A DNA stretch of 43,885 nt from Carboxylicivirga marina (GTDB lineage: Bacteria > Bacteroidota > Bacteroidia > Bacteroidales > Marinilabiliaceae): positions 1-43,885 of the forward strand of contig NZ_JAENRR010000042.1 in assembly GCF_016612505.1 (NCBI RefSeq), in the 5' to 3' direction. Of the stretch, positions 7,770 through 35,134 are shown piece by piece. The stretch's first letter is position 1. Every line of letters starts with the position of its first letter. Under the pieces are notes generated by a model. The model saw only the letters and a list, made by a program, of their open reading frames with translations, did not search any database and had not been told where the DNA came from. Both the position numbers and the translations under genes were made by a program.

Positions 7770-7812
7770 TGAGGTGAACTTGAGAAAAAGTGAGGTAAAA
7801 GTGAGGTGTTTC
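7770..7812 (+). promoter_or_regulatory. Phased TGAG array upstream of ribose operon
   Basis: Four TGAG half-sites start at 7770 (TGAGG), 7781 (TGAGA), 7791 (TGAGG) and 7802 (TGAGG), so the steps are 11, 10 and 11 bp. The core TGAGGTAAAAGTGAGGTGT at 7791-7809 recurs with one change upstream of susC (16387-16405). The array lies 73-115 bp ahead of the permease start. A -7-like TATCCTTG at 7850-7857 lies in between. It is a candidate activator operator; the bound protein is not known. Confidence 0.65.
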
Positions 7813-7884
7813 CAAGCGCACATATCTGGTGTAAATGTGATAAAAATAGTATCCTTGTATATCATAAATCGCTAACACATCCTT

Positions 7885-8886
7885 ATGTATATTGTTGAAA
7901 ATTATCTGACTGCAGTTATCTTCTGTGTGATAACAATGATTTGTTGGGGCTCCTGGGCCAATACACAAAAACTGGCATCTAAAACATGGAGTTTCACCCT
8001 TTTTTACTGGGATTATTCAATAGGAATTGTATTACTGAGTTTGTTATTTGGGATTACTTTGGGTTCTCAGGGCGTGGACGGTCAGGGCTTCTTTGAAAAC
8101 CTGCTGCAAAGCTTTCCAAAGATTTTAATGTATGCTTTAATTGGAGGCATCATATTCAATCTGGCCAATTTGTTATTAGTGGCTGCCATCGATTTGGCGG
8201 GTATGGCCATCGCTTTTCCTATTGGTATTGGTTTGGCACTGGTGCTGGGCGTATTCATTAACTACTTGCCGCAACCCGAAGCTTACAATTCCTTTTTCTT
8301 ATTTGCAGGTGTTGGATTGGTAACCATTGCAATTATTATAAACGCGATTGCCTATAAACGTATTTCAAAGGGAGGAAAGTCCACCAAAGGAATTGTACTT
8401 TCCCTGGTAGCTGGTTTGCTGATGTCATTCTTTTACCGTTTTGTGGCTGATTCGATGTCGCCATCCTTTGCCAATATAGAAGCAGGTACTTTAAGTCCTT
8501 ATACGGCTGTGTTTGTTTTTTCTATTGGCATCTTCTTATCAAGTTTTGTGTTTAACTATTTCTTTATGAAAAGGCCAATTAGTGGGGATGTCGTTTCATT
8601 TGCCGATTATTTTAAACAAGGTAATGCCAAACTACATTTAACTGGTGTATTGGGAGGTGTGATCTGGTGCTTGGGTATGCTGCTGAGTATCATGTCTGGC
8701 GAAAAAGCCGGTTATGCTATTTCATATGGATTAGGTCAGGGAGCTACACTTGTTGCAGCAATATGGGGTGTTTTTGTCTGGAAAGAATTTAAGACTAGCC
8801 CAAAGGGAACGAATGTGTTGTTAGTCTTTATGTTTTTGAGTTTCATTCTTGGATTAACATTAATCATCATTGCCAAAAACAGTTGA
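7885..8886 (+). CDS. GRP-family sugar permease, probable ribose transporter
   Basis: This 333-residue inner-membrane protein has about ten hydrophobic segments. It opens with VIFCVITMICWGSWANTQKL, which is typical of the glucose/ribose uptake (GRP, RbsU/GlcU) branch of the drug/metabolite transporter superfamily. The conserved small-residue loops (IDLAGMAIAFPIGIGLALVLG) are present. It is the first gene of a tight operon; the ribokinase start follows its stop after one base. Ribose as substrate is inferred from that partner; the sequence alone would allow another sugar. Expression is probably driven by the TGAG array at 7770-7812. Confidence 0.85.
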   Translation: MYIVENYLTAVIFCVITMICWGSWANTQKLASKTWSFTLFYWDYSIGIVLLSLLFGITLGSQGVDGQGFFENLLQSFPKILMYALIGGIIFNLANLLLVAAIDLAGMAIAFPIGIGLALVLGVFINYLPQPEAYNSFFLFAGVGLVTIAIIINAIAYKRISKGGKSTKGIVLSLVAGLLMSFFYRFVADSMSPSFANIEAGTLSPYTAVFVFSIGIFLSSFVFNYFFMKRPISGDVVSFADYFKQGNAKLHLTGVLGGVIWCLGMLLSIMSGEKAGYAISYGLGQGATLVAAIWGVFVWKEFKTSPKGTNVLLVFMFLSFILGLTLIIIAKNS

Positions 8887-8887
8887 T

Positions 8888-9793
8888 ATGGGAAAAATAG
8901 TCGTTATAGGAAGTAGTAATACTGATATGGTGGCCACGGCGTCTTCAATGCCTTTGCCCGGACAAACTGTTCATGGAAACAGCTTCACTGTCATACAAGG
9001 AGGTAAAGGCGCTAATCAGGCAGTGGCAGCAGCACGAGCTGGAGCACATGTTACTTTTATAGCTAAAGTGGGAGATGATGATTTTGGGAAACAAGCCATT
9101 GCAGCCTATGAAACGGAAGGCATTGATACTTGTCAGATAGAAATTCAAAAGGGCTGCTCAACCGGAGTGGCTGTTATTACTGTTGATGAGTCTAGCGGTG
9201 AGAATTCAATTGTGGTGATAGGTGGTGCCAATGCCACATTTCAGGCAGAAGAGCTGGATGAGATTGAGGCTGATATTGAAGAGGCTGATATTCTGCTGGT
9301 TCAGCTGGAAATACCCCTTGCTGTTGTTGAAAAGGCCTTGAGAATGGCTCATAAATACAAGGTGCAAACAGTATTAAATCCGGCGCCAGCCATTGAGTTA
9401 AGTGATGAGTTGCTTGGTTTGGTTGATATTCTGATACCTAATGAAACAGAAGCAGCATTGCTCTCAGGGATTACTGCTGAGAGTGAAGAATCCTTAAACT
9501 TAGTTTTGGATAAGTTATTACAGCACGTCAATGAAGCGGTTATATTAACACTCGGAAGCCAGGGTGTTGTTTATCGTTCCAAAGGAGGTGCTCCTATTCA
9601 TATTAAAGCTAACCAGGTAAAAGCCATAGACACAACAGCTGCCGGAGATGTATTCTGTGGCTACCTGGTGAGTTTTTTGTCGGAAAACAATGCCATTGAC
9701 GAGGCAATTAAGCTGGCCAATAATGCGGCCGCCATTTCAGTCACCAGAAAAGGGGCACAACCATCTATTCCATTTATTAAAGAATTAAAATAA
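8888..9793 (+). CDS. rbsK: Ribokinase
   Basis: This PfkB-family sugar kinase phosphorylates ribose to ribose 5-phosphate in the cytoplasm. The N-terminal signature QGGKGANQAVAAARAG (about 37-52) and the C-terminal DTTAAGDVFCGY with the catalytic base D254 are intact. NPAP and PNETEA motifs are also present. I chose ATG 8888 (MGKIVVIGSSNTDMV), which starts one base after the permease stop; the longer frame from 8870 would add six unlikely residues inside the permease gene. The 301-residue length is typical. Ribokinase is the best match in the PfkB family, though substrate preference is not proven. Confidence 0.92.
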   Translation: MGKIVVIGSSNTDMVATASSMPLPGQTVHGNSFTVIQGGKGANQAVAAARAGAHVTFIAKVGDDDFGKQAIAAYETEGIDTCQIEIQKGCSTGVAVITVDESSGENSIVVIGGANATFQAEELDEIEADIEEADILLVQLEIPLAVVEKALRMAHKYKVQTVLNPAPAIELSDELLGLVDILIPNETEAALLSGITAESEESLNLVLDKLLQHVNEAVILTLGSQGVVYRSKGGAPIHIKANQVKAIDTTAAGDVFCGYLVSFLSENNAIDEAIKLANNAAAISVTRKGAQPSIPFIKELK

Positions 9794-9797
9794 TGCT

Positions 9798-11729
9798 ATG
9801 ATTCGATTGTTATTTATAATATCGCTGACCTTCGTTTTTGCTGGATGTGCTTACCAAGAGGCGAGAGAAAATTATCAGTATTTAAAAGTCAAAGATTACC
9901 AAGATGCCGTTTATGCCTCCTGGATTGGACAGATAATAGGTAATACCTACGGATTAGGCTATGAGTTTAAATTCATCGATGAGCCGGGACCAGATATATT
10001 TCCATATGGTTATGATTTTACACTGGAGGACTTACGAAAACACAATGGAGCTTATTCTGATGATGATACAGATATTGAATACATGTATCTGACACAAATG
10101 GAGAAGAATGGTATTGAACCATCTTATTATCATTTAGCTGAGGCATGGAAAGCACATGTAAAGGAACGCATTTGGTTTGCCAATCGTATGGCAGTCACTT
10201 TGATGCATGCCGGGCATTATCCACCTGTTACTGGTCATAAAGATTTTAATTCGGAGTGGTTTCAGATTGATCCGCAACTGGTTAATGAAATATGGGCCAT
10301 TGCAGCACCTGGTATGGTTGATTATGCCGTGGCCAAATCAAAATTTGCAGCACGTATCACCAGTGATGATTTTGGTCTTGAGCCAACATTGCACTATGCT
10401 GGCATGTATAGTGCTGCATTTTTTGAAAAAGATATTAATCGTCTTATTGAAATAGGAAATGAATCTCTGGCGCCTAAAAGTCATTTTGTACAAGCTGTTG
10501 AATTTGTAAAAGAGCAATACGCTTTATATCCAAACAACTGGCAAGAAGCACGCAAAAATATTTGCGATAGATACTATGTAGTAGAAGATTACAACCGTCA
10601 CTCATGGGCAGCTGTAGATGCAACGCTAAATGGGGCATTGGGTATTATGGCTTTGCTGTATGGGCAGGGTGATTTTCAAATGACTTTGGATTATTCATGT
10701 GCCTTTGGTATGGATGCAGATAACCAGGCAGCTACCATGTGTGGTTTGTTAGGGGTGCTTAATGGGTTTGAAAGCATACCTAAAGACTTGATGTTTCCAT
10801 TGGATGATGTTGATTGGGAACTTCCATTCAATGATTCATATAAGATGATAACGCGCGAAGGCCTAGATGATGCCGGAATCATTGAACTGGCTGAACGAAC
10901 AGCTGTACAGGGCGAAAAAACAATATTAGCACATGGAGGTGAAGTAATTGAAAGGAATGGAGAGGCCTATTATAAAATTCCCGTCAATGCAATGTTTGTT
11001 GCACCATTTGAATTAAATACCATTCCAATGCAAGCATTAAAAGTAGGTGAAAATTTTGCCTACCCTATTTATATCGGCGGAAATACAGGTGAAATAAGTT
11101 TGACTATAAGTGGTGATTTGCCTAAAGGAATAAGCTTAATAAATAAAGAGTTGCAGGGTGTCCCACAGGAAGCAGGAAGCTATTCCTTTGCTGTGATGGC
11201 AGATGATGGAAATGAACAAAAGTCAATAGAGGTTAAGCTTGAGGTTTTTGATGGTAACAAGGCTCTAAGTGCACAAACGATTCTGTTTAGTGAACAAGCT
11301 GTTGAGCATTCGATCGAAATAATTCGAGATGGTCAGGTGAAAACCAGTTACATGAGTCTAAAAGGGAATGATGGGCAAGAAACAGATTTTTATGGCTATA
11401 TGTGGTCTGAAGCACAGGAGATTTCAACAGTCATTTATAACACTGGAAAGCCTCATGAGTTTTATGGATGGTTTACCTCCTTTGCAGTGGAGTATCTCGT
11501 TGAAGGAAAGTGGAGAGTCATTGAAAATGCTATTGTTGAACCATCTCTTAATCTGGATAATTCACAATGGTTAAAACCGGCATTTCAGGATTATATCATC
11601 TCTTTTGAGCCTGTTAAAACCAAAGGTATCCGTATAGTTGGTTTATCAGGTGGTATCGAAAAGGATGCTAACAATGCGCATCTGGGAATGGAGTATGCCA
11701 CCAGTATTGGTGAGCTAGAGGTTTATTAG
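9798..11729 (+). CDS. ADP-ribosylglycohydrolase-family lipoprotein with Ig-like and C-terminal binding domains
   Basis: This 643-residue lipoprotein has its lipobox cysteine at C17 (FVFAGC). An ADP-ribosylglycohydrolase fold (about 35-360) carries the first metal motif DDDTD (about 88-92) and a second, GMDADNQAAT (D306, D308). The usual second motif is GxDTDT, so the DADN form is a variant. A cadherin/He_PIG-like Ig domain follows (about 410-480). A C-terminal beta-sandwich (about 530-643) resembles a galactose-binding or discoidin domain. The gene starts four bases after the ribokinase stop. Release of ribose from ADP-ribosyl or other ribosyl conjugates outside the inner membrane would feed the permease and kinase. 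That role is inferred. Confidence 0.82.
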   Translation: MIRLLFIISLTFVFAGCAYQEARENYQYLKVKDYQDAVYASWIGQIIGNTYGLGYEFKFIDEPGPDIFPYGYDFTLEDLRKHNGAYSDDDTDIEYMYLTQMEKNGIEPSYYHLAEAWKAHVKERIWFANRMAVTLMHAGHYPPVTGHKDFNSEWFQIDPQLVNEIWAIAAPGMVDYAVAKSKFAARITSDDFGLEPTLHYAGMYSAAFFEKDINRLIEIGNESLAPKSHFVQAVEFVKEQYALYPNNWQEARKNICDRYYVVEDYNRHSWAAVDATLNGALGIMALLYGQGDFQMTLDYSCAFGMDADNQAATMCGLLGVLNGFESIPKDLMFPLDDVDWELPFNDSYKMITREGLDDAGIIELAERTAVQGEKTILAHGGEVIERNGEAYYKIPVNAMFVAPFELNTIPMQALKVGENFAYPIYIGGNTGEISLTISGDLPKGISLINKELQGVPQEAGSYSFAVMADDGNEQKSIEVKLEVFDGNKALSAQTILFSEQAVEHSIEIIRDGQVKTSYMSLKGNDGQETDFYGYMWSEAQEISTVIYNTGKPHEFYGWFTSFAVEYLVEGKWRVIENAIVEPSLNLDNSQWLKPAFQDYIISFEPVKTKGIRIVGLSGGIEKDANNAHLGMEYATSIGELEVY

Positions 11730-12044
11730 CCTGAGTTCGATTTAAATTTCAGAATTCAGATTATCATAAAGAATTGATATACAGGGCTAGCTTTGCAGGG
11801 CTAGCGAGCTAGCTCTAAAAATTTAACGCAGTAGATTAGTTTTTTATGACAAAGCATAGATGTTTCCCTTATATACAGAGATTTTCTTCCCCAAAAAAAT
11901 ATTCAAAATAGCCCTCTATTCTTTCATGATTTTCGGTTGAAACTCACAATTTATAGGCGATCTGAAACAGAAATTTTACGTCGAACTCAGGTTATTAGTC
12001 TGTGGTTTTTTTATATCTTGGTCAAAGCCAATGAAACCAAGCGC
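11730..12044. other. Intergenic region with hairpin, ahead of LuxR-type regulator
   Basis: The 315-bp gap contains a GCTAGC-rich self-complementary stretch at about 11785-11815, possibly the end of the ribose operon transcript. No TGAG array like those at 7770 or 16387 is seen, so there is no visible sign of autoregulation through that motif. An in-frame TTG at 11937 would extend the regulator by 36 residues but is unlikely to be its start. Confidence 0.4.
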
Positions 12045-14924
12045 ATGAATCGTATAGTTAGCATCTTATTATTAATATCATCTGTTTCTGTATTGTATGC
12101 TCAAAAACTGGGTATTCCCGAAATAGAATATTTCAACCGAAGACAGTATGGCGGAGCTACACAAAATTGGAAAGTATCTCAGAGTGAGAATGATTTGATG
12201 TATTTTGCCAATAATAATGGATTGGTAGAATATGATGGGGTTAAGTGGCAATTGCATCGTCAGGTAGGAGGTGTTATTCGCAGTGTCAAATGCATCAATG
12301 AATACATCTACATCGGTACACCAAATGATTTTGGTTATTTTAAATACGATTCATTACATCACTTGTCTTATACATCATTAGCCAATAGTGAAGAATTAAG
12401 AGGACTAAGGGATGTTTGGACAATCAATGAATGGAATGATAAGGTAATTATTCATGCCGAAGGTGGACTTATTATTATTGAAAATAATGAAGTCTTAAAG
12501 GTTGTTCCGAGTATATCCCGTTTTGTTTCCTGTTTTGTGGTTAACGATATGTTATTGGTGCACGATGAGCAAGAAGGTTTAATGGAGCTTCGGGGTGATG
12601 ATATTTATCCTATTTCAGGCGGTGGTTTCTTTGCCGAAATGAATGTTTCTTCCATAATGTCATTATCTCGTCGTGAATTGCTTATCGGCACAATGAATAA
12701 TGGTGTTTTTAAATGGGACATGAACAAGGTTACTCCTTGGGACGGTTCTAGTAATGAGTTGTTAATTGATGCCAGTATTTTTTGCGGAACGCGGTATAAT
12801 GAAGAATTATTGCTTTTTGGAACCATACAGAATGGTGTGGTGATCACTGATAATAAGGGTGAGCTGGTGATGGAGATAGATAAGGATAAAGGACTGGCAA
12901 ATAATACGGTTCTTGGTATTTTTGTCGATAAGGAAGGTGGTGTTTGGTGTGGTTTGGATAATGGTATTGCCCGAATTAGTCTGAATAATAATGTATCATT
13001 TTTAACCGGTTACTATAATTTAGGAACAGGGTATGTGCAAGAGCAATATGAGGGTGAGTGGTTTTTTGGTACCAATCAGGCATTGTATAAAATAACAGAT
13101 GAGGGCTTTAGAAATCCATTAAAAGATAGAGATGATTTCATTAAAATAAATGGAACAGATGGGCAGGTTTGGAATTTATATAAAGAAGATGGCAATCTTT
13201 TGTGCGGACATAATTTAGGCGTGTTTGAGATTGTTAATAACCAAAGTAAACTTATTACCCCCTCATCAGTCAATGGGGTGTGGAATTTTCTTAAAGTGCC
13301 AGGGCATTCTGATTTAATGATTTCTGGTACGTATAATGGCTTAATTTTAATGCAAAAGATAAATGGCAGATGGACTTTTAAACGTCACCTCGAGGGGTTT
13401 AGTGAGTCGTCGCGCTATATAGAATGGGATGATTTAGGTCGATTATGGGTTTCTCATGGTAATCAGGGAATTTTTTGTTTAAGCTTATCGGACGATTATA
13501 ATGTTGAGAAAGTTAGGATGTATACGGCTGATGATTTCCCAGGTAATAGCTCATTGGTTGTGACACGGATAAACAATCGAACAACACTAATTGGAAATAA
13601 TGGCTTGTTTATCGTCGGAAAAAATGGTGAAGTAAAAGATTACGATGAATTGGATCATTTTTTTGCGCCTCATCAATACCCATCGATTATAAAAGAAGAT
13701 CGCTTTAATAATTTGTGGTTGTTTTATCGCGACTATGTTGAGGTGCTGCGCTATCTGGAGGATGGAACATACACGAAAATTTCTTTACCATTTATTCCGC
13801 TTGAAAGAAAATTGGTCACCAATTTTGAATCGGTTTATATTGCTGACCATGAAAATGTGTTTTTTGGAGTTGAAGATGGTTATGCTCATTATGTGATGCA
13901 GGACCACTATAATTATAGAATACCCTTTAATGTGCACTTGCGTTCTTTTACAGGCCGTAAGGATAGTATTCCCTATGTTCTTTTGCAAAAAGAGAATGGC
14001 AGCAATGAGCAATTGCAAGTGCCGGTTTATTCATTCAAACAGAATCATTTTGAGTTTAAATATGCGGCCAGCTTTTATGGTGATAAAGCTGTAGAATATT
14101 CAACATTCCTGTCTGGGGTTGATAATGCACCCGCAGGTTGGACAAGTTCAAGCTCTCGTCAATTCACAAAGCTGCGCGAAGGAGATTATGTTTTTACTGT
14201 TAAAGCGCGTAACCGCTTTGGAGTACAATCCATACCATTGTCCTTTAAGTTTACAGTGTTACCACCTTGGCATCGGCATGTCTATGCCAAGGTTGCCTAC
14301 CTAGTTTTCATTCTGATAATTGCATTTGTTGTCACTTATATATTTAATCGACGCATTGAGGTAAGTAAACAGAACGAGAAGTTGAAAGCTCGTGAGCGTT
14401 ATAAGGAAAAAGAAGAGCACTTGACTAATGAGGCATTAAGGGCTGAGAAAGAAATGATAAAAATGCGCAATGATAAGCTCAGAGGTGAAATGAAATTCAA
14501 AGAAAAGGAACTGGCTGGTTTAACAGTGCATATCATTCAAAAAAACAATTTATTATCGGAACTGCAAGGGCAGCTGAAACGTATCAAACGGATCAAATCA
14601 AACGATGAATCGGATCGTAAAATCGATAACCTGATAAAGAAAATTGATAAGGATATTGATAATGAAACTAACTGGCAGATGTTCGAAGGCCAGTTTGAAC
14701 AAGTGCACCAGTCCTTTTTAAATCGTTTGGTTGAGAAATTTCCAGATTTAAGTGATAAAGAAAAGAAATTATGTGCCTATATTAAAATGGGTATGGCATC
14801 AAAAGAAATTGCTTCGCTTATGAATATCAGTACGCGATCGGTCGAAAATAACCGTTACAAGCTACGTCAAAAGCTAGGCTTACAATCTGGAGATGATCTA
14901 TCGGAGATTATAACCTCAATTTAA
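12045..14924 (+). CDS. Membrane-spanning one-component regulator: sensor propeller, Y_Y_Y, LuxR-type HTH
   Basis: This 959-residue protein is read from ATG 12045, which gives the clear signal peptide MNRIVSILLLISSVSVLYAQ. The periplasmic part (about 25-660) has repeated Reg_prop-like beta-propeller blades (VWCGLDNGIARI, LWVSHGNQGIFCL). It is followed by a Y_Y_Y domain (about 667-742). A single membrane helix (about 746-768) leads to a coiled coil (about 772-850). The C-terminal LuxR-type HTH (about 900-955) contains LSDKEKKLCAYIKMGMASKE and SVENNRYKLRQKLGL. There is no kinase or receiver domain, so signal transfer must go straight from sensor to DNA. It lies between two operons that share the TGAG array and is the best candidate regulator. 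Confidence 0.9.
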   Translation: MNRIVSILLLISSVSVLYAQKLGIPEIEYFNRRQYGGATQNWKVSQSENDLMYFANNNGLVEYDGVKWQLHRQVGGVIRSVKCINEYIYIGTPNDFGYFKYDSLHHLSYTSLANSEELRGLRDVWTINEWNDKVIIHAEGGLIIIENNEVLKVVPSISRFVSCFVVNDMLLVHDEQEGLMELRGDDIYPISGGGFFAEMNVSSIMSLSRRELLIGTMNNGVFKWDMNKVTPWDGSSNELLIDASIFCGTRYNEELLLFGTIQNGVVITDNKGELVMEIDKDKGLANNTVLGIFVDKEGGVWCGLDNGIARISLNNNVSFLTGYYNLGTGYVQEQYEGEWFFGTNQALYKITDEGFRNPLKDRDDFIKINGTDGQVWNLYKEDGNLLCGHNLGVFEIVNNQSKLITPSSVNGVWNFLKVPGHSDLMISGTYNGLILMQKINGRWTFKRHLEGFSESSRYIEWDDLGRLWVSHGNQGIFCLSLSDDYNVEKVRMYTADDFPGNSSLVVTRINNRTTLIGNNGLFIVGKNGEVKDYDELDHFFAPHQYPSIIKEDRFNNLWLFYRDYVEVLRYLEDGTYTKISLPFIPLERKLVTNFESVYIADHENVFFGVEDGYAHYVMQDHYNYRIPFNVHLRSFTGRKDSIPYVLLQKENGSNEQLQVPVYSFKQNHFEFKYAASFYGDKAVEYSTFLSGVDNAPAGWTSSSSRQFTKLREGDYVFTVKARNRFGVQSIPLSFKFTVLPPWHRHVYAKVAYLVFILIIAFVVTYIFNRRIEVSKQNEKLKARERYKEKEEHLTNEALRAEKEMIKMRNDKLRGEMKFKEKELAGLTVHIIQKNNLLSELQGQLKRIKRIKSNDESDRKIDNLIKKIDKDIDNETNWQMFEGQFEQVHQSFLNRLVEKFPDLSDKEKKLCAYIKMGMASKEIASLMNISTRSVENNRYKLRQKLGLQSGDDLSEIITSI

Positions 14925-16166
14925 TTATTTAATGCGATAGAAAACAGAAAATACAGAACGGTTAAAGTCAACCGTAATACCTGTCATTTTCATTAAATCT
15001 TTTTCAAGTTCATAAGTGTATTCAAGTCCAACTCGTTTATAGTTTACGCCAGCTGACGCAAAAAAACTTGCAGCACCTTTGATATTATAGCTTTTCAATT
15101 CAGCACCATCTATTATTCTCTTAGTAATTTTGGCATTAACAGGTATTTCATAGGCAGCACCTCCTTGAATGTATGCCGACCAATTAGGTCTTGATATTAT
15201 GTAATTACGCATGGCAATTGGCATTTGTATGGTATAATAATCAATGATGCTTTCAATATGTGAGTTGGTCTCGCCATCTCCGTATATAACACGTTCGTTA
15301 GCTGCTAATAACATTGGTGCACAACTAACAGACCATATATTCCTTTTGCCGAATACAACCTCCATGTCAACACCTGCTTGATAGCCTACCCCATTAATCG
15401 TTTGTTCCTCATACGTAATAAACCTACTGGGGAGAAGCATGCTGTATATGTTAATTCCCACTTTAGATCTAAATCTGAAATTTGATTTGTGTCTGACACA
15501 AACCACATATTCTGTGTGAGTTTCAGAAACACGTTTGTTATAGGCATTAAATAAGTCAATAAGATCTGTAGCTGTATATTGTAGGTTTTGAAAGTAACTA
15601 ATGTCTAATTTAGCCTTGTTTAAGGCGTTGATAAGTTGAGAGCGAAATGTAAAGTCATTTTTGGTGGTCTTATTCGATGTTGTAATTGTTGGATCGAACA
15701 TGGTTCCCGAATGTAACTGATCTTGCTTCTTCATATACATTAGGTATGCTACTTTACTATTATCCACCGAATAAAAGAATTTATCACCTTGAGTTGAAGG
15801 TAGCATATATAAGTTGGCATCTCCTTCAATGAGTTGCTGCATCAATACAGAGTTAGTTTCAAATCTTAGCAGAGACTGATCTTTTTCTTTATAGATTGAA
15901 TCTATGAATACGGGTGCGCGATAGAATTTAATGGTATTAAAAACAACAAGCTCACTAATTTGATCGGCTTCTATTTTATTTATTTCCCCATCGGGTTTTA
16001 GGCGATATTCAAAGAAGTCTGGAATGGTATTCCATTTTCGTAATAGAAACTGACAGTTTGTTTTTTGGTTTAATCTGTTTGTAAAATAGCCATCCAATAA
16101 TTGCTCTTGTGCCAACATTCTTAAGCTAAAGGCAAGGTATAGGATTAAAAATAGCGTTTTTTTCAT
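14925..16166 (-). CDS. Uncharacterised secreted, probably outer-membrane beta-barrel protein
   Basis: This 413-residue protein has a signal peptide (MKKTLFLILYLAFSLRMLAQ). I recognise no named family. The N-terminal 150 residues contain alternating strands. The C-terminal half (about 240-413) has amphipathic strands such as VGINIYSMLLPS and SAYIQGGAAYEIPV. It ends in SVFSVFYRIK, which looks like the last strand of an outer-membrane barrel. Its stop touches the stop of the LuxR-type regulator with no base between them (14922-14924 and 14925-14927). It is divergent from susC, so the TGAG array in the shared 339-bp region could act on it too. It may be a small accessory porin, but this is open. 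Confidence 0.75.
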   Translation of the reverse strand: MKKTLFLILYLAFSLRMLAQEQLLDGYFTNRLNQKTNCQFLLRKWNTIPDFFEYRLKPDGEINKIEADQISELVVFNTIKFYRAPVFIDSIYKEKDQSLLRFETNSVLMQQLIEGDANLYMLPSTQGDKFFYSVDNSKVAYLMYMKKQDQLHSGTMFDPTITTSNKTTKNDFTFRSQLINALNKAKLDISYFQNLQYTATDLIDLFNAYNKRVSETHTEYVVCVRHKSNFRFRSKVGINIYSMLLPSRFITYEEQTINGVGYQAGVDMEVVFGKRNIWSVSCAPMLLAANERVIYGDGETNSHIESIIDYYTIQMPIAMRNYIISRPNWSAYIQGGAAYEIPVNAKITKRIIDGAELKSYNIKGAASFFASAGVNYKRVGLEYTYELEKDLMKMTGITVDFNRSVFSVFYRIK

Positions 16167-16386
16167 AAGTGTGCGGTCCTAAAATGTATATTATAAAGAA
16201 ATAACTATAGAATTAATTAACAAAAGGTGAAAGCTTATTTCTTTCGTTTTGATACAAAACAATGTTAAAAAGTGTAATCCTAGCATCTAAGTGTAATAAA
16301 TACAATAATGAGTGTTTGTAGGGTTGTTTTTGAGATGGATGAAATATTCTAAATGGCATAAAAAGAGATATATGGAATTTTAGAAG

Positions 16387-16441
16387 TGAGGTAAAAATGA
16401 GGTGTATAGTGTAGTAGTATGAGTTCTTTGTGAGGCCTGTT
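16387..16441 (+). promoter_or_regulatory. Phased TGAG array upstream of susC
   Basis: TGAGG starts at 16387 and 16398, TGAGT at 16420 and TGAGG at 16431. With a degenerate slot at 16409 all five positions sit on an exact 11-bp grid. The core TGAGGTAAAAATGAGGTGT (16387-16405) differs by one base from that upstream of the ribose operon. The array ends 65 bp ahead of the susC start. The remaining part of gap 16167-16505 shows no gene. Confidence 0.65.
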
Positions 16442-16468
16442 AATTAGCATTCGTTAACAAATGGCTTT

Positions 16469-16476
16469 AGGTTTGT
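16469..16476 (+). promoter_or_regulatory. Candidate -7 promoter element of susC
   Basis: TAGGTTTG matches the Bacteroidota -7 consensus TAnnTTTG. It lies 38 bp after the last TGAGG and 30 bp before the susC ATG. No good -33 TTTG is visible at the right distance, which would fit a promoter that needs an activator. Confidence 0.45.
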
Positions 16477-22429: not shown

Positions 22430-24184
22430 ATGTTTCGACTAATAGCAATAGTATTCTTAAACTGTACATTTCTAAATGGCGGGCTAAGCCAGGGATTCTT
22501 GCGAGTTAATGATAAAGATATCGTCAACGATGATGGTCCTATTATTATCCGTAGCATTGGAACAGGCAACTGGATGATTCAGGAAGGTTACATGATGCAG
22601 TCGACCGATGCTGGCATCAATACCCACACACAGTTTCGAAACAAACTCAATGAAGCCATGGGGGTGGAGAGAACCAATGAATTCTATGATTATTGGTTAC
22701 AACATCATTTTACCAAAGCCGATGTTGATTCAATGAAGGCATGGGGCTTTAATGCTGTACGCCCGGCTTTACATTATAAGTGGCTTACATTGCCTATTGA
22801 AGAAGAAGAGACTACCAATGGCACCATTAGAAATACATGGCTCAATAAAGGATTTGACATGCTGGATGAGTTGGTTTCATGGTGTGAGCAGAATGAAATG
22901 TATGTCATTTTTGATATGCACGGTACTCCCGGAGGTCAGGGAAAAAATGCAGATATAAGTGATTATGATTCAGCTTTACCATCCTTATGGGAGAGCAAAG
23001 ATAATCAGGATAAATTAATTGTTTTATGGAAAAAAATAGCTGAACGTTATAAAAACAATCCATGGGTTGGTGGTTATGATATTATTAATGAGCCCAACTG
23101 GAATGTTGATGGAACTGGTAATCCTAATGGATGTGGATGCGAAAGCAACAAAGCGATATGGGATTTGCATCAACGACTAACCGAGGCTATTCGCGCAGTT
23201 GATGATAAACATATCATCTTTATATCTGGCAACTGCTGGGGAAATAACTACAATGGATTCGATAATCACATCTTAAACGGTTATGATGATAATACCGTTT
23301 TAACCTTTCATAAGTACTGGAATAGTAATCATCAAAATGCCATACAATGGGCAATTGACATGCGTGAGCAATACAATATGCCTTTATGGATGAGTGAATC
23401 AGGTGAGAACTCAAATCACTGGTTTGCCGAAGCAATAGAATTATTTGAAAAAAATAACATTGGTTGGTCATGGTGGCCTGTTAAAAAAAGCCGGCTGAAC
23501 AATGTATTAAAGGTGACCACCAATGACAATTACCATGAATTAATTAATTCGTGGAAAGATGGCCAAACACCATTGTCAGCTGATGAAACATACAAAGCTA
23601 TTATGGAATATGCTATGGCTCACGAAATTGATAACTGTACAGTTGCTCCTGACGTTATTTTTGCCATGAGTAATGGAAGTAATAGTACAGCTACCCAAGC
23701 TTATGCTCAACACTCAACAGGAGAGTGGATTCAGTGTGTCAACTATGATCTTGGAAAAGACGGCTTTGCATATCACGATGCTTTATCGGAGAATATTCAT
23801 GAAGGTGATAATAAATGGGCCAAGTGGAATACAGGTAATTACTACCGAAATGATGGTGTTGATATAGGAAAACACGGTGGCGACTACTATGTTGGATGGA
23901 CCGAGGCCGGCGAATGGTTACAATATACGATACGGGTTGATGAGGCCGGCCAATACAATTTAGAATTAATAAGTGCTGCTGCTATTCAAGGAAGTCTGGT
24001 TAGTATCACTGTTAATGGTGTAGAACAAGCGTCAAATATTGAATTGCCAAGCACTGGAGCCAAAGAAAATTGGCATAATTCTGTAATTACAAAACTAGAA
24101 TTACTAGCAGGAGAACAAAAAGTGAGAATTAAATTCAACTCTGGGGGGACTGACATAAAGGCTTTTAAACTTATTAAGATATAA
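22430..24184 (+). CDS. GH5-family beta-glucanase with C-terminal CBM6-like domain
   Basis: This 584-residue secreted glycoside hydrolase has a signal peptide (cleavage near GLSQG). The GH5 barrel (about 25-400) shows the acid/base E221 in YDIINEPNW and the likely nucleophile E323 in LWMSESGEN. FDMHGTPGGQ and WGFNAVRPALHYKW are also typical of exo-beta-1,3-glucanase-like GH5 proteins. The C-terminal region (about 470-584) resembles CBM6 (VGWTEAGEWLQYTIRV, LLAGEQKVRIKFNSGG). CBM6 modules often bind beta-1,3- or beta-1,4-glucans. The gene starts 22 bp after a terminator and is followed by the PKD-GH16 gene after two bases, so these two are co-transcribed. Subfamily and exact linkage are uncertain. 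Confidence 0.9.
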   Translation: MFRLIAIVFLNCTFLNGGLSQGFLRVNDKDIVNDDGPIIIRSIGTGNWMIQEGYMMQSTDAGINTHTQFRNKLNEAMGVERTNEFYDYWLQHHFTKADVDSMKAWGFNAVRPALHYKWLTLPIEEEETTNGTIRNTWLNKGFDMLDELVSWCEQNEMYVIFDMHGTPGGQGKNADISDYDSALPSLWESKDNQDKLIVLWKKIAERYKNNPWVGGYDIINEPNWNVDGTGNPNGCGCESNKAIWDLHQRLTEAIRAVDDKHIIFISGNCWGNNYNGFDNHILNGYDDNTVLTFHKYWNSNHQNAIQWAIDMREQYNMPLWMSESGENSNHWFAEAIELFEKNNIGWSWWPVKKSRLNNVLKVTTNDNYHELINSWKDGQTPLSADETYKAIMEYAMAHEIDNCTVAPDVIFAMSNGSNSTATQAYAQHSTGEWIQCVNYDLGKDGFAYHDALSENIHEGDNKWAKWNTGNYYRNDGVDIGKHGGDYYVGWTEAGEWLQYTIRVDEAGQYNLELISAAAIQGSLVSITVNGVEQASNIELPSTGAKENWHNSVITKLELLAGEQKVRIKFNSGGTDIKAFKLIKI

Positions 24185-24186
24185 AA

Positions 24187-25530
24187 ATGCAACAAGCGAT
24201 TTTCAGATTAATTATACTGTTCTTCACTTTATCAATCCTGGGATGTTCCGAGGACGAAACAAAGTCGGCATACGTGCCTGATTTTTCCATTTCACCGCAT
24301 CCAACAGATGGTAATGTGTTTGTTTTTGAAAATACCACTGAGGGAGATCACTTTTACTGGCGATGGAACTTTGGAAATGGCGACCGTACTGATCGCGAGC
24401 CGATTGATGAAAATACAATCAATAGTTTTTACCCTGAAAAAGGAACTTTTGACGTCACTTTAACCATCTGGGGTGATCAAACAGACCTAGCCAATAATAA
24501 AAGTGTCACTAAGCAGGTAACAGTTGATGAAGATGTGTTTAGTGCAGATTTTAGCATTGAAAGTGTGGCAGGAAAAACGAATTCATACCAATTGGTAAAT
24601 ACTACAACAGGAAGTTTTGAAAGTGCTGTCTGGTTGGTGCAGGGCAAAGAAATTGAGGATAATGGGCAAGCCTATGAAGCTTATTTTCCTTTTGAGGGAA
24701 AGTATGATGTACAATTAAGAATAGCAAGTAACACATACGAGAATGCGCTTACTAAAGAAATAATAATAAATGCAGATGATGACGAGTACCGGTCGCATTA
24801 TGAACTTGTATGGAACGATGAGTTTGAAGGTACAAACATCGATGTGGACAAATGGAAATTTGAAACAGGACAGCATGGCTGGGGTAACAATGAATGGCAA
24901 AACTACACCGATGGTGCAAATGTGGAAGTTGCTGATGGGACCCTTAAAATTATTGCTAAACGTATTGGAGAAGGACAAAAAGTGGGTGATTATACGTCCA
25001 CAAGGATAAATGCAAAGGCGTCGCATACTTATGGGATTTTTGAGGTACGTGCGATGATGCCTGAAGATAAAGGGCCAGGTCATTGGCCGGCTATCTGGAT
25101 GTTAGGTGAATCCATTCAAAATGGTACCTCCTGGCCGCTATGTGGTGAAATGGACATCATGGAGTACGTAAGTTGGGATCCCAATACAACGTCTAGTAGT
25201 ATTCATATTCAAAGTAATAACCATGCCAATGGAAATCCCATTGGTTCTGGGCATTTGCCTTTAGAAACAGCTGAAGAGGCCTTTCACATTTATGGGCTTA
25301 TATGGACAGATAGTTTTGTACGTTTTTATCGTGATGATATTGAAAATACCATTTTAACCTATAATAAGCCTGATGAAGCGACGAAGGATAACTGGCCTTT
25401 TGACGATCCGTTTTATTTCCTCCTTAATATAGCCGTAGGTGGCGATTATGGAGGTGTTCAGGGAGTTGATGATGCTATTTTTCCAGCTACCATGGAGGTG
25501 GATTATGTAAGGGTTTATCAAATGAATTAA
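24187..25530 (+). CDS. GH16 endo-beta-glucanase lipoprotein with PKD domain
   Basis: This 447-residue lipoprotein has its lipobox cysteine at C20 (LSILGC). One or two PKD-like domains (about 30-195) include DHFYWRWNFGNGD and FYPEKGTFDVTLTIWG. The GH16 catalytic domain (about 200-447) has the active-site block E321-M-D323-I-M-E326 with nucleophile E321 and acid/base E326. The laminarinase-type ExDxxE form, together with WKFETGQHGWGNNEWQNYTD and MDYVRVYQ-like ending VDYVRVYQ, points to endo-beta-1,3-glucanase activity. PKD-GH16 proteins are frequent in laminarin PULs of marine Bacteroidota. It would cut the polymer at the cell surface ahead of SusC import. Confidence 0.93.
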   Translation: MQQAIFRLIILFFTLSILGCSEDETKSAYVPDFSISPHPTDGNVFVFENTTEGDHFYWRWNFGNGDRTDREPIDENTINSFYPEKGTFDVTLTIWGDQTDLANNKSVTKQVTVDEDVFSADFSIESVAGKTNSYQLVNTTTGSFESAVWLVQGKEIEDNGQAYEAYFPFEGKYDVQLRIASNTYENALTKEIIINADDDEYRSHYELVWNDEFEGTNIDVDKWKFETGQHGWGNNEWQNYTDGANVEVADGTLKIIAKRIGEGQKVGDYTSTRINAKASHTYGIFEVRAMMPEDKGPGHWPAIWMLGESIQNGTSWPLCGEMDIMEYVSWDPNTTSSSIHIQSNNHANGNPIGSGHLPLETAEEAFHIYGLIWTDSFVRFYRDDIENTILTYNKPDEATKDNWPFDDPFYFLLNIAVGGDYGGVQGVDDAIFPATMEVDYVRVYQMN

Positions 25531-25537
25531 AAAAATA

Positions 25538-25666
25538 CGAATGGGCTTTTCAAAACAGAGTATTACTCTGCCAAAGCCAAAGGTTCTTTAATGTAGTTAG
25601 CTTGGTTAAACGATAGGCTGCAGAACTTCTTAACGAAGGAGCTATGTTGTCAGAAAAGCTCATTCG
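25538..25666. repeat. Imperfect 14-bp inverted repeat bounding a 129-bp segment
   Basis: CGAATGGGCTTTTC (25538-25551) is repeated inverted at 25653-25666 with one mismatch. A small inner hairpin CAGAGTATTACTCTG (25556-25570) lies inside. This fills most of the gap between the two GH16 genes. It could be a decayed miniature element or an RNA structure; a target duplication is not evident. Confidence 0.4.
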
Positions 25667-25764
25667 AAAGGCTAACATTTCATTATTGATCTAAAGTACA
25701 TTGAGCCTTTGGTGATTTTTAAAGAAAGAGAATCATTAAATTGTTTATGCCAAAATCAAGTGAT

Positions 25765-26559
25765 ATGAAACTTTTTTACTTCGTTCTTCTGATGATTTTT
25801 TTAGTCAGTTGTAGCTCTAAATCAGGCTATCAACTTGTTTGGAGTGATGAGTTTGATTATGCAGGATTACCTGATTCAAGCAAATGGAGTTACGATGTCG
25901 AAGGCAATGCCTGGCAGTGGGGTAATAATGAGTTACAACACTATACAGCCAATCGTTTAGAAAATGCCGTGGTTAAGGATGGACAGCTTCATATCATTGC
26001 ACATAAGGAGGATGGGTTTAATCGTTCCTATACCTCTGCTCGCTTAGTAACGAAAGGGAAAGGAGACTGGCTCTATGGTCGCATTGAAGTAAGGGCAAAA
26101 GTAGCAAGTGGGAAAGGAACCTGGCCCGCCATCTGGATGTTGCCAAGCGATTGGGAATATGGGGGTTGGCCTGACAGTGGAGAGATTGACATAATGGAAT
26201 ATGTGGGATATGCTCCCGATTCCTTGTTTTTTACAGTACACACGGGTGCCTATAACCATGTTAAAGGAACCCACAAAGCTAATGGTGTTCTGGTGCCTGA
26301 TGCAGAACATGATTATCATGTTTATGCACTTGAGTGGACTGCCAGTAAGTGTCTTTTTTTCCTGGATGACGAAAAGGTTTTTGAGTTTAAAAAAGAAGAA
26401 AGAGCCACGTCTGCTGAATGGCCTTTCGATAAGCGCTTTCACCTAATAGTAAACCTTGCTGTAGGTGGAAACTGGGGAGGGAAGCATGGTGTTGATGAAA
26501 CCATTTTTCCTTGTGAAATGCTGGTTGATTATGTGCGTGTATATCAAAAAGATAAATAA
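25765..26559 (+). CDS. GH16 endo-beta-glucanase lipoprotein, single domain
   Basis: This 264-residue lipoprotein is read from ATG 25765, which places the lipobox cysteine at C16 (FLVSC). Upstream in-frame starts at 25741 (TTG) and 25747 would spoil the signal peptide. The GH16 domain fills the protein and has E140-I-D142-I-M-E145 in GEIDIMEYV, with nucleophile E140 and acid/base E145. KGTWPAIWMLPSDW and VDYVRVYQ are typical laminarinase motifs. It lacks the PKD part of its neighbour at 24187, so the two are related paralogues with different surface display. It likely also acts on beta-1,3 or mixed-linkage glucan, perhaps on shorter chains. Confidence 0.93.
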   Translation: MKLFYFVLLMIFLVSCSSKSGYQLVWSDEFDYAGLPDSSKWSYDVEGNAWQWGNNELQHYTANRLENAVVKDGQLHIIAHKEDGFNRSYTSARLVTKGKGDWLYGRIEVRAKVASGKGTWPAIWMLPSDWEYGGWPDSGEIDIMEYVGYAPDSLFFTVHTGAYNHVKGTHKANGVLVPDAEHDYHVYALEWTASKCLFFLDDEKVFEFKKEERATSAEWPFDKRFHLIVNLAVGGNWGGKHGVDETIFPCEMLVDYVRVYQKDK

Positions 26560-26580
26560 ATATTCAGTAAATATAGAACG

Positions 26581-28839
26581 ATGAACAACAAACTGTTTTT
26601 TACGCTAATTGTTTCAGGTCTGATTCTTTTTCAGGCATGCAATACACCTGCTGGGCAGGGTGACGAAATAGATGACAAGGTAGAAGCTCTTTTGGCTCAG
26701 ATGACACTGGAAGAGAAAGTGGGACAGATGAATCAATACAATGGTTTCTATGATGTAACAGGACCTGCACCTGCTGAGGGTGATGCGAAACATAAATATG
26801 AACACATAAAAAATGGTTGGGTTGGTTCCATGTTAAATGTACGTGGTGCTGCTGAAGTACGTAAAATGCAAGCTTTGGCTGTTGATAGCTCGCGATTGGG
26901 TATTCCAATGATATTTGGCTTTGACGTCATTCATGGGCACAAAACCTTATCTCCTATTCCATTGGCTGAGGCAGCCAGTTGGGATTTAGCAGCCATTGAG
27001 AAGTCAGCACGTATTGCTGCTATTGAGGCATCGGCCGAAGGTATTAACTGGACTTTTGCACCCATGGTTGATATCTCACGTGATGCCCGCTGGGGGCGTG
27101 TGATGGAAGGCGCTGGTGAAGACACCTATCTGGGTTCTAAAATTGGTGTGGCGCGTGTTAATGGTTTTCAGGGCGATGACTTGAGTGCCAATAATACCAT
27201 CGCGGCTTGTGCCAAGCATTTTGCTGGTTATGGTTTTGCCGAGGCAGGTATGGATTATAATACGGTTGATGTAGGTATGGCGACCTATTACAATGTGATA
27301 TTCCCACCATTTAAAGCAGCTGTTGATGAGGCTGATGTAAAAACGTTTATGAACTCATTTAACATTGTTAATGCTATTCCGGCAACAGCCAATAAACATA
27401 TTCAGCGCGATATCTTAAAAGGCGATTGGGGTTTTAAGGGTTATGTTATTTCTGACTGGAGTAGTGGTCGTGAAATGATTGACCACGGTTATGCACGCGA
27501 TTTAAAGCATGTAGCCGAGTTGGCCGCCAATGCAGGTTCTGATATGGATATGGAATCATATGCTTACGTTAATCATTTGGCAGATTTAGTGCGTGAAGGT
27601 AAAGTTAATGAGGGTGTTGTTGATGATGCTGTTCGTCGTATTCTTCGTGTTAAATATGAGTTAGGCTTATTCGATGATCCGTTTAAATATTGTGATGAAA
27701 AGCGCGAGAAAGAGTTGATTTATCATGCTGATCATATGGAAGCTGCTTTGGATATGGCGAAGCGCTCAATTGTGCTGCTTAAAAATGAAAATAATATTCT
27801 GCCGCTAAATAAAGACAAAAAGATTGCTGTTATTGGTGCTTTGGCCGATGATAAAGATAGTCCGCTAGGTAACTGGCGTATGGCTGGCGAGGATAATACG
27901 GCCATTTCTGTATTAGAAGGTTTAGATAACTATGGTGTAAAATACAAGTATGCCGAAGGTGGTAAGTTAATTACCGGTCCAACGGCCTTTCCTTTCGAGT
28001 TGGAAGTAAATACAACTGATAAATCGGGTATTAAGGAAGCGGTCAATTTAGCCAAACAGTCTGAAGTTGTAGTAATGGTGCTTGGTGAGCATGGTTTGCA
28101 CAGTGGCGAAGGAAGAGGACGCGCTAATCTTGGTTTACCGGGTGTTCAGCAAGAGTTGTTGGAAGCGGTTTATAAAGTGAATAAAAACATTGTTTTAGTA
28201 TTAATGAATGGTCGCCCATTAACCATAACCTGGGCTGATGAGCATGTGCCGGCAATTGTAGAAGCATGGCAACTGGGAACACAAACCGGTAATGCTGTTA
28301 CGCAGGTATTGTATGGCGAATATAATCCTTCGGGTAAATTGCCAATGACCTTCCCTCGTCATGTTGGTCAGGTGCCGATTTATTACAATCAGTTCCGTAC
28401 GGGGCGTCCAGGACCAAAACATGAAGTATTCTGGCCGCATTATATGGATGAAAGTGAAAAGCCATTGTATCCGTTTGGTTATGGTTTGAGTTATACTGAG
28501 TTTGATTATACGAATCTTAAGGTAAATCTTAAGGCTAAAAACCAGGTTGAAGTTTCAGTTTCGGTTACAAATATCGGAAGTAAAGCAGGCGAAGAAGTGG
28601 TTCAGCTTTATATAAATGATAAGGTAGCAAGTATTGTTCGACCAGTAAAAGAGTTAAAAGGTTTTGAGAAGATAAAACTAGAGCCTTCACAAACAACAAC
28701 AGTAACATTTATGCTGACTGATAAAGAGCTGGGTTTTTATAATAATCAGGGAGAATATCTGGTTGAAGCAGGTGATTTTGAGGTGATGGTTGGCACCAGT
28801 TCTGTTTCAGGTCTTAAAGATAAATTCACACTAGAATAA
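26581..28839 (+). CDS. bglX: GH3 beta-glucosidase lipoprotein
   Basis: This 752-residue periplasmic or membrane-anchored exo-beta-glucosidase has its lipobox cysteine at C20 (ILFQAC). The N-terminal GH3 barrel (about 35-380) contains MTLEEKVGQM, KHFAGYGFAEAGMDYN and the nucleophile D292 in GYVISDWSS. The C-terminal alpha/beta domain (about 390-620) has SEVVVMVLGEHGLHSGEGRGR. A fibronectin-III-like domain closes the protein (about 670-752). It closely resembles the BglX type. It starts 21 bp after the GH16 gene. It would release glucose from the oligosaccharides produced by the GH16 and GH5 enzymes. The symbol reflects family resemblance, not proven orthology. Confidence 0.93.
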   Translation: MNNKLFFTLIVSGLILFQACNTPAGQGDEIDDKVEALLAQMTLEEKVGQMNQYNGFYDVTGPAPAEGDAKHKYEHIKNGWVGSMLNVRGAAEVRKMQALAVDSSRLGIPMIFGFDVIHGHKTLSPIPLAEAASWDLAAIEKSARIAAIEASAEGINWTFAPMVDISRDARWGRVMEGAGEDTYLGSKIGVARVNGFQGDDLSANNTIAACAKHFAGYGFAEAGMDYNTVDVGMATYYNVIFPPFKAAVDEADVKTFMNSFNIVNAIPATANKHIQRDILKGDWGFKGYVISDWSSGREMIDHGYARDLKHVAELAANAGSDMDMESYAYVNHLADLVREGKVNEGVVDDAVRRILRVKYELGLFDDPFKYCDEKREKELIYHADHMEAALDMAKRSIVLLKNENNILPLNKDKKIAVIGALADDKDSPLGNWRMAGEDNTAISVLEGLDNYGVKYKYAEGGKLITGPTAFPFELEVNTTDKSGIKEAVNLAKQSEVVVMVLGEHGLHSGEGRGRANLGLPGVQQELLEAVYKVNKNIVLVLMNGRPLTITWADEHVPAIVEAWQLGTQTGNAVTQVLYGEYNPSGKLPMTFPRHVGQVPIYYNQFRTGRPGPKHEVFWPHYMDESEKPLYPFGYGLSYTEFDYTNLKVNLKAKNQVEVSVSVTNIGSKAGEEVVQLYINDKVASIVRPVKELKGFEKIKLEPSQTTTVTFMLTDKELGFYNNQGEYLVEAGDFEVMVGTSSVSGLKDKFTLE

Positions 28840-28849
28840 TACACTTAGA

Positions 28850-28931
28850 GAGTCCGGTAAATGCTTATTTAGACGTAAATAGGAAAAATGAAAACAATGA
28901 ATAATCGCAGATTCTAATTCATACCGGACTC
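28850..28931. repeat. Inverted repeat GAGTCCGGTA ... TACCGGACTC
   Basis: A perfect 10-bp inverted repeat (28850-28859 with 28922-28931) encloses 62 bp, including a small TATTTA/TAAATA hairpin at about 28876-28891. It begins just 11 bp after the first GH3 stop. It may be a miniature repeat or an RNA stem that protects or ends the upstream transcript. Confidence 0.45.
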
Positions 28932-29086
28932 GTTTCTAATGCATTTGTATTTAGGGTATAATAAGTTGTAAAAGCTTTGTTAATCAGGAAATGTTATCAA
29001 TCGTTATTCTAATTGGTAACATTTCGTGCATAATGACAATTGGTCTTTGAGTTATTTTTGGTGTACAATAATAAAACGATAGCGTG

Positions 29087-33488: not shown

Positions 33489-33531
33489 GTACCCAATAAA
33501 CCCGATTATTAATCACCCTTAATATTATAAC

Positions 33532-35016: not shown

Positions 35017-35026
35017 TAAACTAAGT

Positions 35027-35100
35027 AACCATCTCCCCTCGCATTAGGAGAAGTATCATAATTCCCCTCTTCTGAAAGGAGGTACGACAGGGGAGTGGTT
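35027..35100. repeat. Palindromic repeat between oxidoreductase 2 and DUF1080 genes
   Basis: AACCATCTCCCCT (35027-35039) pairs imperfectly with AGGGGAGTGGTT (35089-35100). Inner pairs CTCC/GGAG and CCTC/GAGG add to the fold. It fills nearly all of the 118-bp gap and would form a long hairpin in the transcript. It looks like a small dispersed repeat, but only one copy lies in this window. Confidence 0.6.
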
Positions 35101-35134
35101 CAATTTTGTTAATATGAACTTTAAAAACTATAAA

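Follow-up and report, generated by a model that had tools for sequence, protein, structure and literature searches.

Two operons of Carboxylicivirga marina, one for a sugar permease and a ribokinase and the other a polysaccharide utilization locus (PUL) that appears to be of the laminarin type, are preceded by matching arrays of the word TGAG, and a gene for a membrane-spanning one-component regulator with a LuxR-type helix-turn-helix (HTH) lies between them. These features are contained in a stretch of 43,885 nucleotides (contig NZ_JAENRR010000042.1, positions 1 to 43,885), which is referred to here as the window and supplies all coordinates given without a contig label. The sites, how they are spaced and conserved, the genes downstream of them and the fact that they occur together with the regulator are direct observations. 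Based on comparisons of promoter sequences, we regard the conserved operator as real and as very probably that of a laminarin regulon. We strongly favor the reading in which the transmembrane activator encoded at 12045-14924 uses the arrays as its operators, with a regulon comprising the laminarin-type PUL and, here and in two relatives, the ribokinase operon, because of the 11-bp pair of sites, its co-occurrence with the regulator and the nature of the target genes.

Matching TGAG arrays in two promoters

The array upstream of the permease-ribokinase operon consists of four plus-strand TGAG units at 7770, 7781, 7791 and 7802 (7770..7805), separated by steps of 11, 10 and 11 bp. In the susC promoter the units are located at 16387, 16398, 16420 and 16431 (16387..16434, plus strand), corresponding to positions 0, +11, +33 and +44 of an exact 11-bp grid in which a single slot is unoccupied, and they form the putative core operator. 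The permease-array core GTGAGGTAAAAGTGAGGTG (7790-7808, plus strand) has its counterpart in the susC-array core GTGAGGTAAAAATGAGGTG, with 18 of 19 positions identical. A preliminary description of this DNA had reported these eight coordinates, the exact grid of the susC set and an agreement of 21 in 22 positions between 7788-7809 and 16384-16405; all proved correct on re-reading, a single base differing between the two segments, and the observation of matching phased TGAG arrays is confirmed. Its statement that both arrays end 65-75 bp before the start codon applies to susC (71 bp to the ATG) but not to the permease gene (79 bp). The TAnnTTTG-like -7 box that it placed after each array is exact at 16468..16475 (TAGGTTTG), while the element at 7850..7857 (TATCCTTG, 59 bp from the TGAG at 7791) has one mismatch; both are on the plus strand. 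Measured to the -7 boxes, all TGAG units of the two arrays lie on or at most 1 bp from slots at 37, 48, 59, 70 and 81 bp, with 37, 48, 70 and 81 occupied before susC and 48, 59, 69 and 80 before the permease gene.

The susC promoter contains additional plus-strand elements. A distal TGAG (16309..16312), 78 bp upstream of 16387, and a TTAACA (16454..16459) are missing from the preliminary description and recur in relatives; the latter may be part of the operator rather than of the promoter. The mostly conserved ATTAG at 16443..16447 is a possible weak -33 element. Further upstream, the TGTTAAAAAATGT-like element TGTTAAAAAGTGT (16263..16275), 124 to 112 bp 5' of the first core TGAG and about 44 bp 5' of the distal TGAG, is found again in many orthologous promoters.

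Four TGAG fall within 45 bp at two places on the plus strand and at none on the other strand, compared with a mean of 0.11 per strand and a maximum of 2 in 400 shuffles. A whole-genome motif scan, as the preliminary description had suggested, showed that the core is not a genome-wide repeat: GTGAGGTN5TGAGGTG has two exact matches in the 5.65-Mb genome, namely the permease and susC promoters flanking the regulator gene, and the other 17 places carry two mismatches each. Taken together, the matches (13 + 6) do not exceed those of a reversed-pattern control (15 + 10).

The regulator encoded at 12045-14924

The regulator gene (12045..14924, plus strand) was characterized by Pfam search and a structure model. 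Its product has a signal-peptide-like start, a Reg_prop propeller sensor, a Y_Y_Y domain, a long helix, a coiled coil and a LuxR/GerE HTH. Pfam matches were obtained for GerE (E 3.5e-8), Y_Y_Y (E 3.6e-5, at 24 bits below Pfam's own cut-off of 26.6) and Reg_prop (E 4.1e-5); the search gave no histidine kinase or receiver domain at E <= 0.001 and no NTPase or TPR match. The long helix (residues 778-829 in the 995-amino-acid numbering) starts with a likely transmembrane segment, and the HTH is encoded at about 14748-14891, with the helix RSVENNRYKLRQKL. In the structure model (mean predicted local distance difference test score 77.7, predicted template modeling score 0.51), where relative domain placement is uncertain, helices lead from the membrane region to the HTH. 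The best structural matches of the sensor in Foldseek were the sensors of BT4673, BT4663 and BT3049. The protein thus combines the features of the Y_Y_Y-LuxR class: a GerE/LuxR HTH joined to a sensor of propeller and Y_Y_Y domains, no kinase or receiver, and susC and susD genes nearby.

Conservation in promoters of relatives

From 40 regions around regulator homologues, 31 intergenic susC promoters on the regulator's strand were obtained, which together with that of the window make a set of 32. The printed list of these promoters leaves out L056, L074, L076, L086 and L087; L052, L053, L069, L084 and L085 are printed and were not used in the 22-promoter alignment A2. Absence from related species, which the preliminary description would have counted against the array, is not what we found: the array is kept in relatives. 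In an unanchored count, TGAG-N7-TGAG is present in 34 of the 36 susC promoters that adjoin an orthologue of the regulator (Carboxylicivirga and kin), and for a less strict version of this pair the background is 0.03 per 510 bp.

Within the set of 32 promoters, TGAG occurs 161 times on the sense strand and 24 times on the other. Pairs of TGAG are 11 bp apart in 38 cases, 22 bp in 20, 33 bp in 25 and 44 bp in 8, and at larger distances there are 7 pairs at 67 bp, 16 at 78 bp, 15 at 89 bp and 12 at 111 bp; the expectation is 2.2 per distance, and the antisense strand has fewer than 4 at every distance. Slots were counted without gaps and anchored on the best TGAG pair. Slot +33 holds TGAG in 18 promoters and TGA in 23, a distal TGAG is found at -78 +/- 1 in 18, and all four TGAG are retained in at most 7. 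In a MAFFT alignment of 22 of these promoters, which has small gaps, ATTA, TTAACA and TTTG line up across all or most of the rows.

Co-occurrence with the regulator and predicted regulon

A sequence-only model of the 22 susC promoters (R1) was scanned in 60 genomes, orthologues being defined as regulator matches at E <= 1.2e-248 (the next best of the 60 genomes has 1.1e-178). At E <= 1e-8, R1 matched all 25 genomes with an orthologue and one of the 35 without. Eleven of the 25 are outside the training set and were all matched, although some of them are closely related to training genomes. Where only more distant homologues occur (e.g. G022 and G032), there was no match at E <= 0.01. The genome of C. 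marina itself has one strong site, which is the susC promoter (E 5e-17).

The R1 matches listed comprise 46 places, 41 of them at E <= 1e-3, and the next gene was inspected for 18 of these 41: it is susC in seven, a glycoside hydrolase family 16 (GH16) gene in six, a Glyco_hydro_cc gene, a phosphorylase gene and a sensor gene in one each, and unclear in two. Five of the GH16 targets were assigned by Pfam and one by likeness; one lies about 3 kb from its regulator and the rest are unlinked. The phosphorylase, a beta-1,3-oligosaccharide (oligoglucan) phosphorylase, matches 6HQ6 (E 1.6e-166), and the Glyco_hydro_cc enzyme (PF11790) is presumably of the GH128 type. The other 23 places at E <= 1e-3 comprise 22 regulator-linked susC promoters and one place (G001:C104) beside a paralogue. 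Since R1 was built only from susC promoters and finds unlinked GH16 and phosphorylase genes, we take its site to be the operator of a beta-1,3-glucan regulon.

Several R1 places deserve separate mention. Five weaker ones stand beside paralogous regulators (G002:C1:4435347, G015:C1:765327, G001:C104, G006:C58 and G009:C74). An array in G017 (C7:66109-66198, L299; E 8.5e-9) lies about 49 bp 5' of a propeller-type sensor gene, which may point to a regulatory cascade there. The weak places G000:C160, C124 and C125, G026:C175 and G033:C33 were set aside, as they look like chance or other repeats. Three similar short stretches, at G000:C160:453-501 (L315), G000:C124:60633 (L317) and G026:C175:4807 (L318), have repeated TGAGTTTAAT-like units after GAATTTAAT and are possibly another repeat element; downstream of the repeats in L315 and L317 there is no open reading frame of at least 90 amino acids.

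The ribokinase operon as a possible second target

An orthologue of the permease was found in 4 of 14 genomes of the genus. The permease operon adjoins the regulator in three genomes (the window, L053 and L054), and all three carry the core, at a distance of 59 bp to the -7 box. The permease gene of G005 is unlinked to the regulator and stands beside a divergent ribokinase-like gene, and the surrounding 16 kb have no TGAG-N7-TGAG on either strand. The regulator-homologous part in L053 and L054 begins about 16 bp after the last aligned codon of the third gene, so that the third gene and the regulator are probably on a common transcript there. The operator is plausibly shared with the ribokinase operon.

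The preliminary description had proposed that this or a related regulator binds the arrays and co-activates ribose and glucan use, and this interpretation is partly supported. The tracking of orthologues by the array, the uniqueness of the exact core and the presence of beta-1,3-glucan genes among the other targets argue for it, while the evidence on the ribose side is synteny in three genomes, two of them close kin.

A possible grammar of sites among distant homologues

Usable susC promoters were present within 4.5 kb of 96 of the 143 distinct regulator homologues; the other 47 had no susC within that distance or too short an upstream stretch. In a word-free search for 8-bp near-repeats in these 96 promoters, lags of 11 and 33 bp were each seen in 45 promoters, 22 bp in 33 and 44 bp in 22, whereas first-order shuffles gave a mean of 8.9 (sd 2.9) per lag. 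The control, 260 other promoters of the same loci, gave 42 at lag 11 and 35 at lag 33, with a mean of 25.2 (sd 7.6) over lags and its highest count, 46, at lag 15. For the 60 promoters with regulators less than 40% identical, lag 33 was seen in 18 (z 5.5) and lag 11 in 17 (z 5.1), followed by lags 39 and 22 with 14 each.

The word of the distant homologues is TGATGTA or TGATGTG (Labilibaculum, Flavobacterium and others). Neither the TGAG pair nor TGATGTA repeats were found in 31 of 32 promoters below 30% identity and in 16 of 28 at 30-40%. In raw counts, recognition helices with NN go with the TGAG pair in 34 of 35 cases, those with NH with a TGAGGT form in 9 of 12, and those with LA (2 of 2) and IS (9 of 19) with TGATGTA; the element of the VENH clade, TGAGGT(A/G)..., is mostly TGAGGTRATTGTGA. 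A quick tree made without the HTH groups the VENN rows in one 37-row set (100% Shimodaira-Hasegawa-like approximate likelihood ratio test), which also holds L126 (VENY, with a TGAG pair) and L087 (also VENNR, though overlooked by the pattern used here), and places VENH in another clade. After correction for ancestry, the link between helix and word comes down to 3 independent pairs with a median sign-test p of 0.5, which is not significant, and the tie of the recognition helix to the half-site word is at most suggestive. Fisher values, which take no account of ancestry, were disregarded. We consider the chances about even that Y_Y_Y-LuxR regulators across Bacteroidota share one grammar, with TGA-type half-sites on an 11-bp grid at slots 0, +11, +33 and +44 and a word set by two helix residues (TGAG for VENN and VENH, TGATGTA for VEIS and VELA).

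Two other patterns were seen in these promoters. Several promoters, as well as those of the VENH clade, have TTAACA directly 5' of a TGAG. All six VEIR regulators of the set (L155, L163, L164, L166, L168 and L169; Mucilaginibacter, Pontibacter and kin) have susC promoters with ACTACATCATTACCTCTCA, in which TGAG and TGATGTA are inverted and 10 bp apart, together with a TGATGT in direct orientation 90-112 bp upstream of the start.

Relation to known regulatory systems

LuxR-type HTHs that read asymmetric tandem boxes are known from MalT. In Escherichia coli this activator responds to a sugar and occupies several MalT boxes by cooperative binding (PMC4381067), and it provides a precedent for a factor acting in this way. 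Its STAND ATPase and TPR-like sensor differ from the window regulator, for which no NTPase or TPR match was obtained.

The closest parallels in spacing come from the SusR-like membrane regulators, for which Ravcheev et al. 2013 (PMC3878776) predicted operators of direct repeats spaced by 67 or 77 bp; the authors state that the DNA-binding domain of SusR does not significantly resemble that of any other known factor. As described there, these proteins, like the window regulator, are sugar regulators located in the membrane, carry a putative HTH at the C-terminus and have direct repeats proposed to share one helix face. In spacing they resemble our lags of 67 and 78 bp; pairs at these distances number 7 and 16 in the 32 promoters, while 11, 33 and 22 bp dominate. 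The SusR-like arrangement has two sites and a long spacer, in contrast to the 11-bp pair, second pair at +33/+44 and frequent distal site found here. A comparison with canonical SusR was set aside: only one of the 18 full-tail matches that the regulator model gave in NCBIfam BT3442_fam regions had a susC start within 5 kb in the stretch examined, and two stretches 5' of starch susD genes had no match to that model. Hybrid two-component systems (HTCS) share the periplasmic sensor fold (BT4673, BT4663 and BT3049) and, in the same paper (PMC3878776), predicted direct-repeat operators, on average 21 bp apart unlike those described here. They also differ in having a kinase, a receiver and an AraC-type HTH, where the window regulator has a LuxR-type HTH and no kinase or receiver.

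Among accounts of related pathways, RusR controls ribose use in B. thetaiotaomicron, with no RusR motif in the portion of the source cited (PMC12596196), and LuxR genes head many laminarin PULs, with no operator in the corresponding portion (PMC13188888). In our literature search, neither an operator of Y_Y_Y-LuxR proteins nor an 11-bp array came to light. The claim of the preliminary description that it knew of no described operator of this form is to be qualified by the direct repeats predicted for SusR-like and HTCS regulators (PMC3878776, as cited above); the arrays may be considered a variant of those operators predicted for other Bacteroidota sugar regulators.

Proposed mechanism

We infer binding, dimer arrangement, ligand, activation and looping from the pattern of sites and the domains of the regulator. 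The periplasmic propeller and Y_Y_Y domain would probably bind a beta-1,3-glucan oligosaccharide, and the signal would pass through one transmembrane helix and the coiled coil to the LuxR-type HTH that reads TGAG(G/T). Because the direct repeats are one turn apart, the two HTHs of a dimer would be expected to bind head to tail on one face, with half-sites 11 bp apart, and the two pairs three turns apart suggest two dimers. The second dimer (+33/+44) would occupy the same face, adjoining the weak -33 region, and recruit RNA polymerase to the TAnnTTTG promoter. A good -33 element has the consensus TTTG, and the ATTAG found before susC in its place would fit an activator beside RNA polymerase. 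DNA bending may allow the distal site, 78 bp upstream, to contribute cooperativity. The ribokinase operon lies upstream of the regulator gene, and read-through transcription may include the regulator.

Alternative explanations

The periodicity could be a generic trait of A/T-rich Bacteroidota promoters, such as phased tracts, rather than an operator. The control promoters do show a slight excess at lags 11 and 33, but lags 15 and 9 are equally high there, and the 45 of 96 regulator-linked promoters at each of lags 11 and 33, along with the strand-specificity of TGAG, make this explanation hardly credible. We also consider it quite unlikely that the array is read by another regulator of the same genomes, for example a Y_Y_Y-LuxR paralogue or a global factor. 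Candidates exist, as the C. marina genome has a further gene likely of the Y_Y_Y-LuxR kind (C33:92353-94989, one open frame with both profile ends matched) and several longer profile matches that are probably HTCS-type, and VENH-type paralogues have a TGAG-containing element before susC. Against such a reader, the site tracks the orthologue, many sites adjoin it, and genomes with only distant homologues yielded no match.

Several observations weigh against the favored reading itself, in which the regulator at 12045-14924 acts through the arrays. The conservation of the 0/+11 pair (31 of 32 promoters at each position) is partly by construction, through anchoring. Slot +44 has TG in 26 of 32 and TGAG in only 7, TTTG at +86 +/- 1 is present in 18, and TTAACA at +67 +/- 1, found in 29, is missing at +67 in L085-L087. 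No TGAG pair lies directly 5' of the regulator gene in any of 36 orthologues, and direct autoregulation through such a pair was accordingly discarded. G027 (76% complete) has a strong R1 site and no orthologue was found in it, G016 combines a 34% homologue with a marginal match (E 0.007), and several targets in Marinilabilia-type genomes are far from the regulator. On the ribokinase side, the permease promoter contains one 10-bp step and lacks TTAACA at +67, its extra pair at 7770/7781 is not retained in L053 and L054 although the core pair is, and the link amounts to about two independent cases because L053 and L054 are close kin. R1 scores this promoter at E 0.72, behind other chance-like places of the genome, and the array before the permease gene is limited to three genomes. 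A metabolic connection of ribose to laminarin is not known to us. These last points would suit a permease array that is a by-product, either a recent duplication or a weak site without effect, with susC and the glucanases as the only true targets. We think this rather unlikely in view of the near-identity of the permease core to that of susC and its retention in L053 and L054 at an equal distance to the -7 box.

Other genes of the window

The permease gene (7885..8886, plus strand; ureide permease / RhaT-GlcU superfamily) is followed on the same strand by the ribokinase gene (8870..9793; TIGR02152 above cut-off) and a gene for an ADP-ribosylglycohydrolase-family protein with an Ig-like domain (9798..11729), which is lipoprotein-like judging by its signal (..FAGC). 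The preliminary description correctly placed the regulator gene between the two operons but took it as the only gene there; a minus-strand gene for a 413-amino-acid protein (14925..16166) also lies between the regulator and susC. This protein has a relative in L050 (51%) and gave nothing at E <= 0.001 in the Pfam search.

Downstream, on the plus strand, susC (16506-19724) and susD (19765-21501) are followed by genes for a 272-amino-acid protein, a GH5-type enzyme (PF00150) with carbohydrate-binding modules (CBM6/35), two GH16 and two GH3 enzymes; the enzymes, encoded at 22430..31258, are likely beta-glucan enzymes, and we read the cluster as a PUL of the beta-1,3-glucan (laminarin) type. Positions 31941-36720 encode two Gfo/Idh/MocA oxidoreductases, a 3-keto-disaccharide hydrolase and a xylose-isomerase-like protein, which together would suit the breakdown of 3-keto-glucosides.

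Implications

A recognizable operator links the regulator to its predicted regulon from sequence alone, including glucanase genes that are unlinked to it, and would provide a direct handle on beta-1,3-glucan sensing by marine Bacteroidota. Similar spacing before the genes of related sensors elsewhere may help to predict sensor-target pairs, and a shared grammar, if true, would make the regulons of many PULs predictable from sequence. If the ribokinase link is real, one glycan sensor would also steer a pentose pathway.

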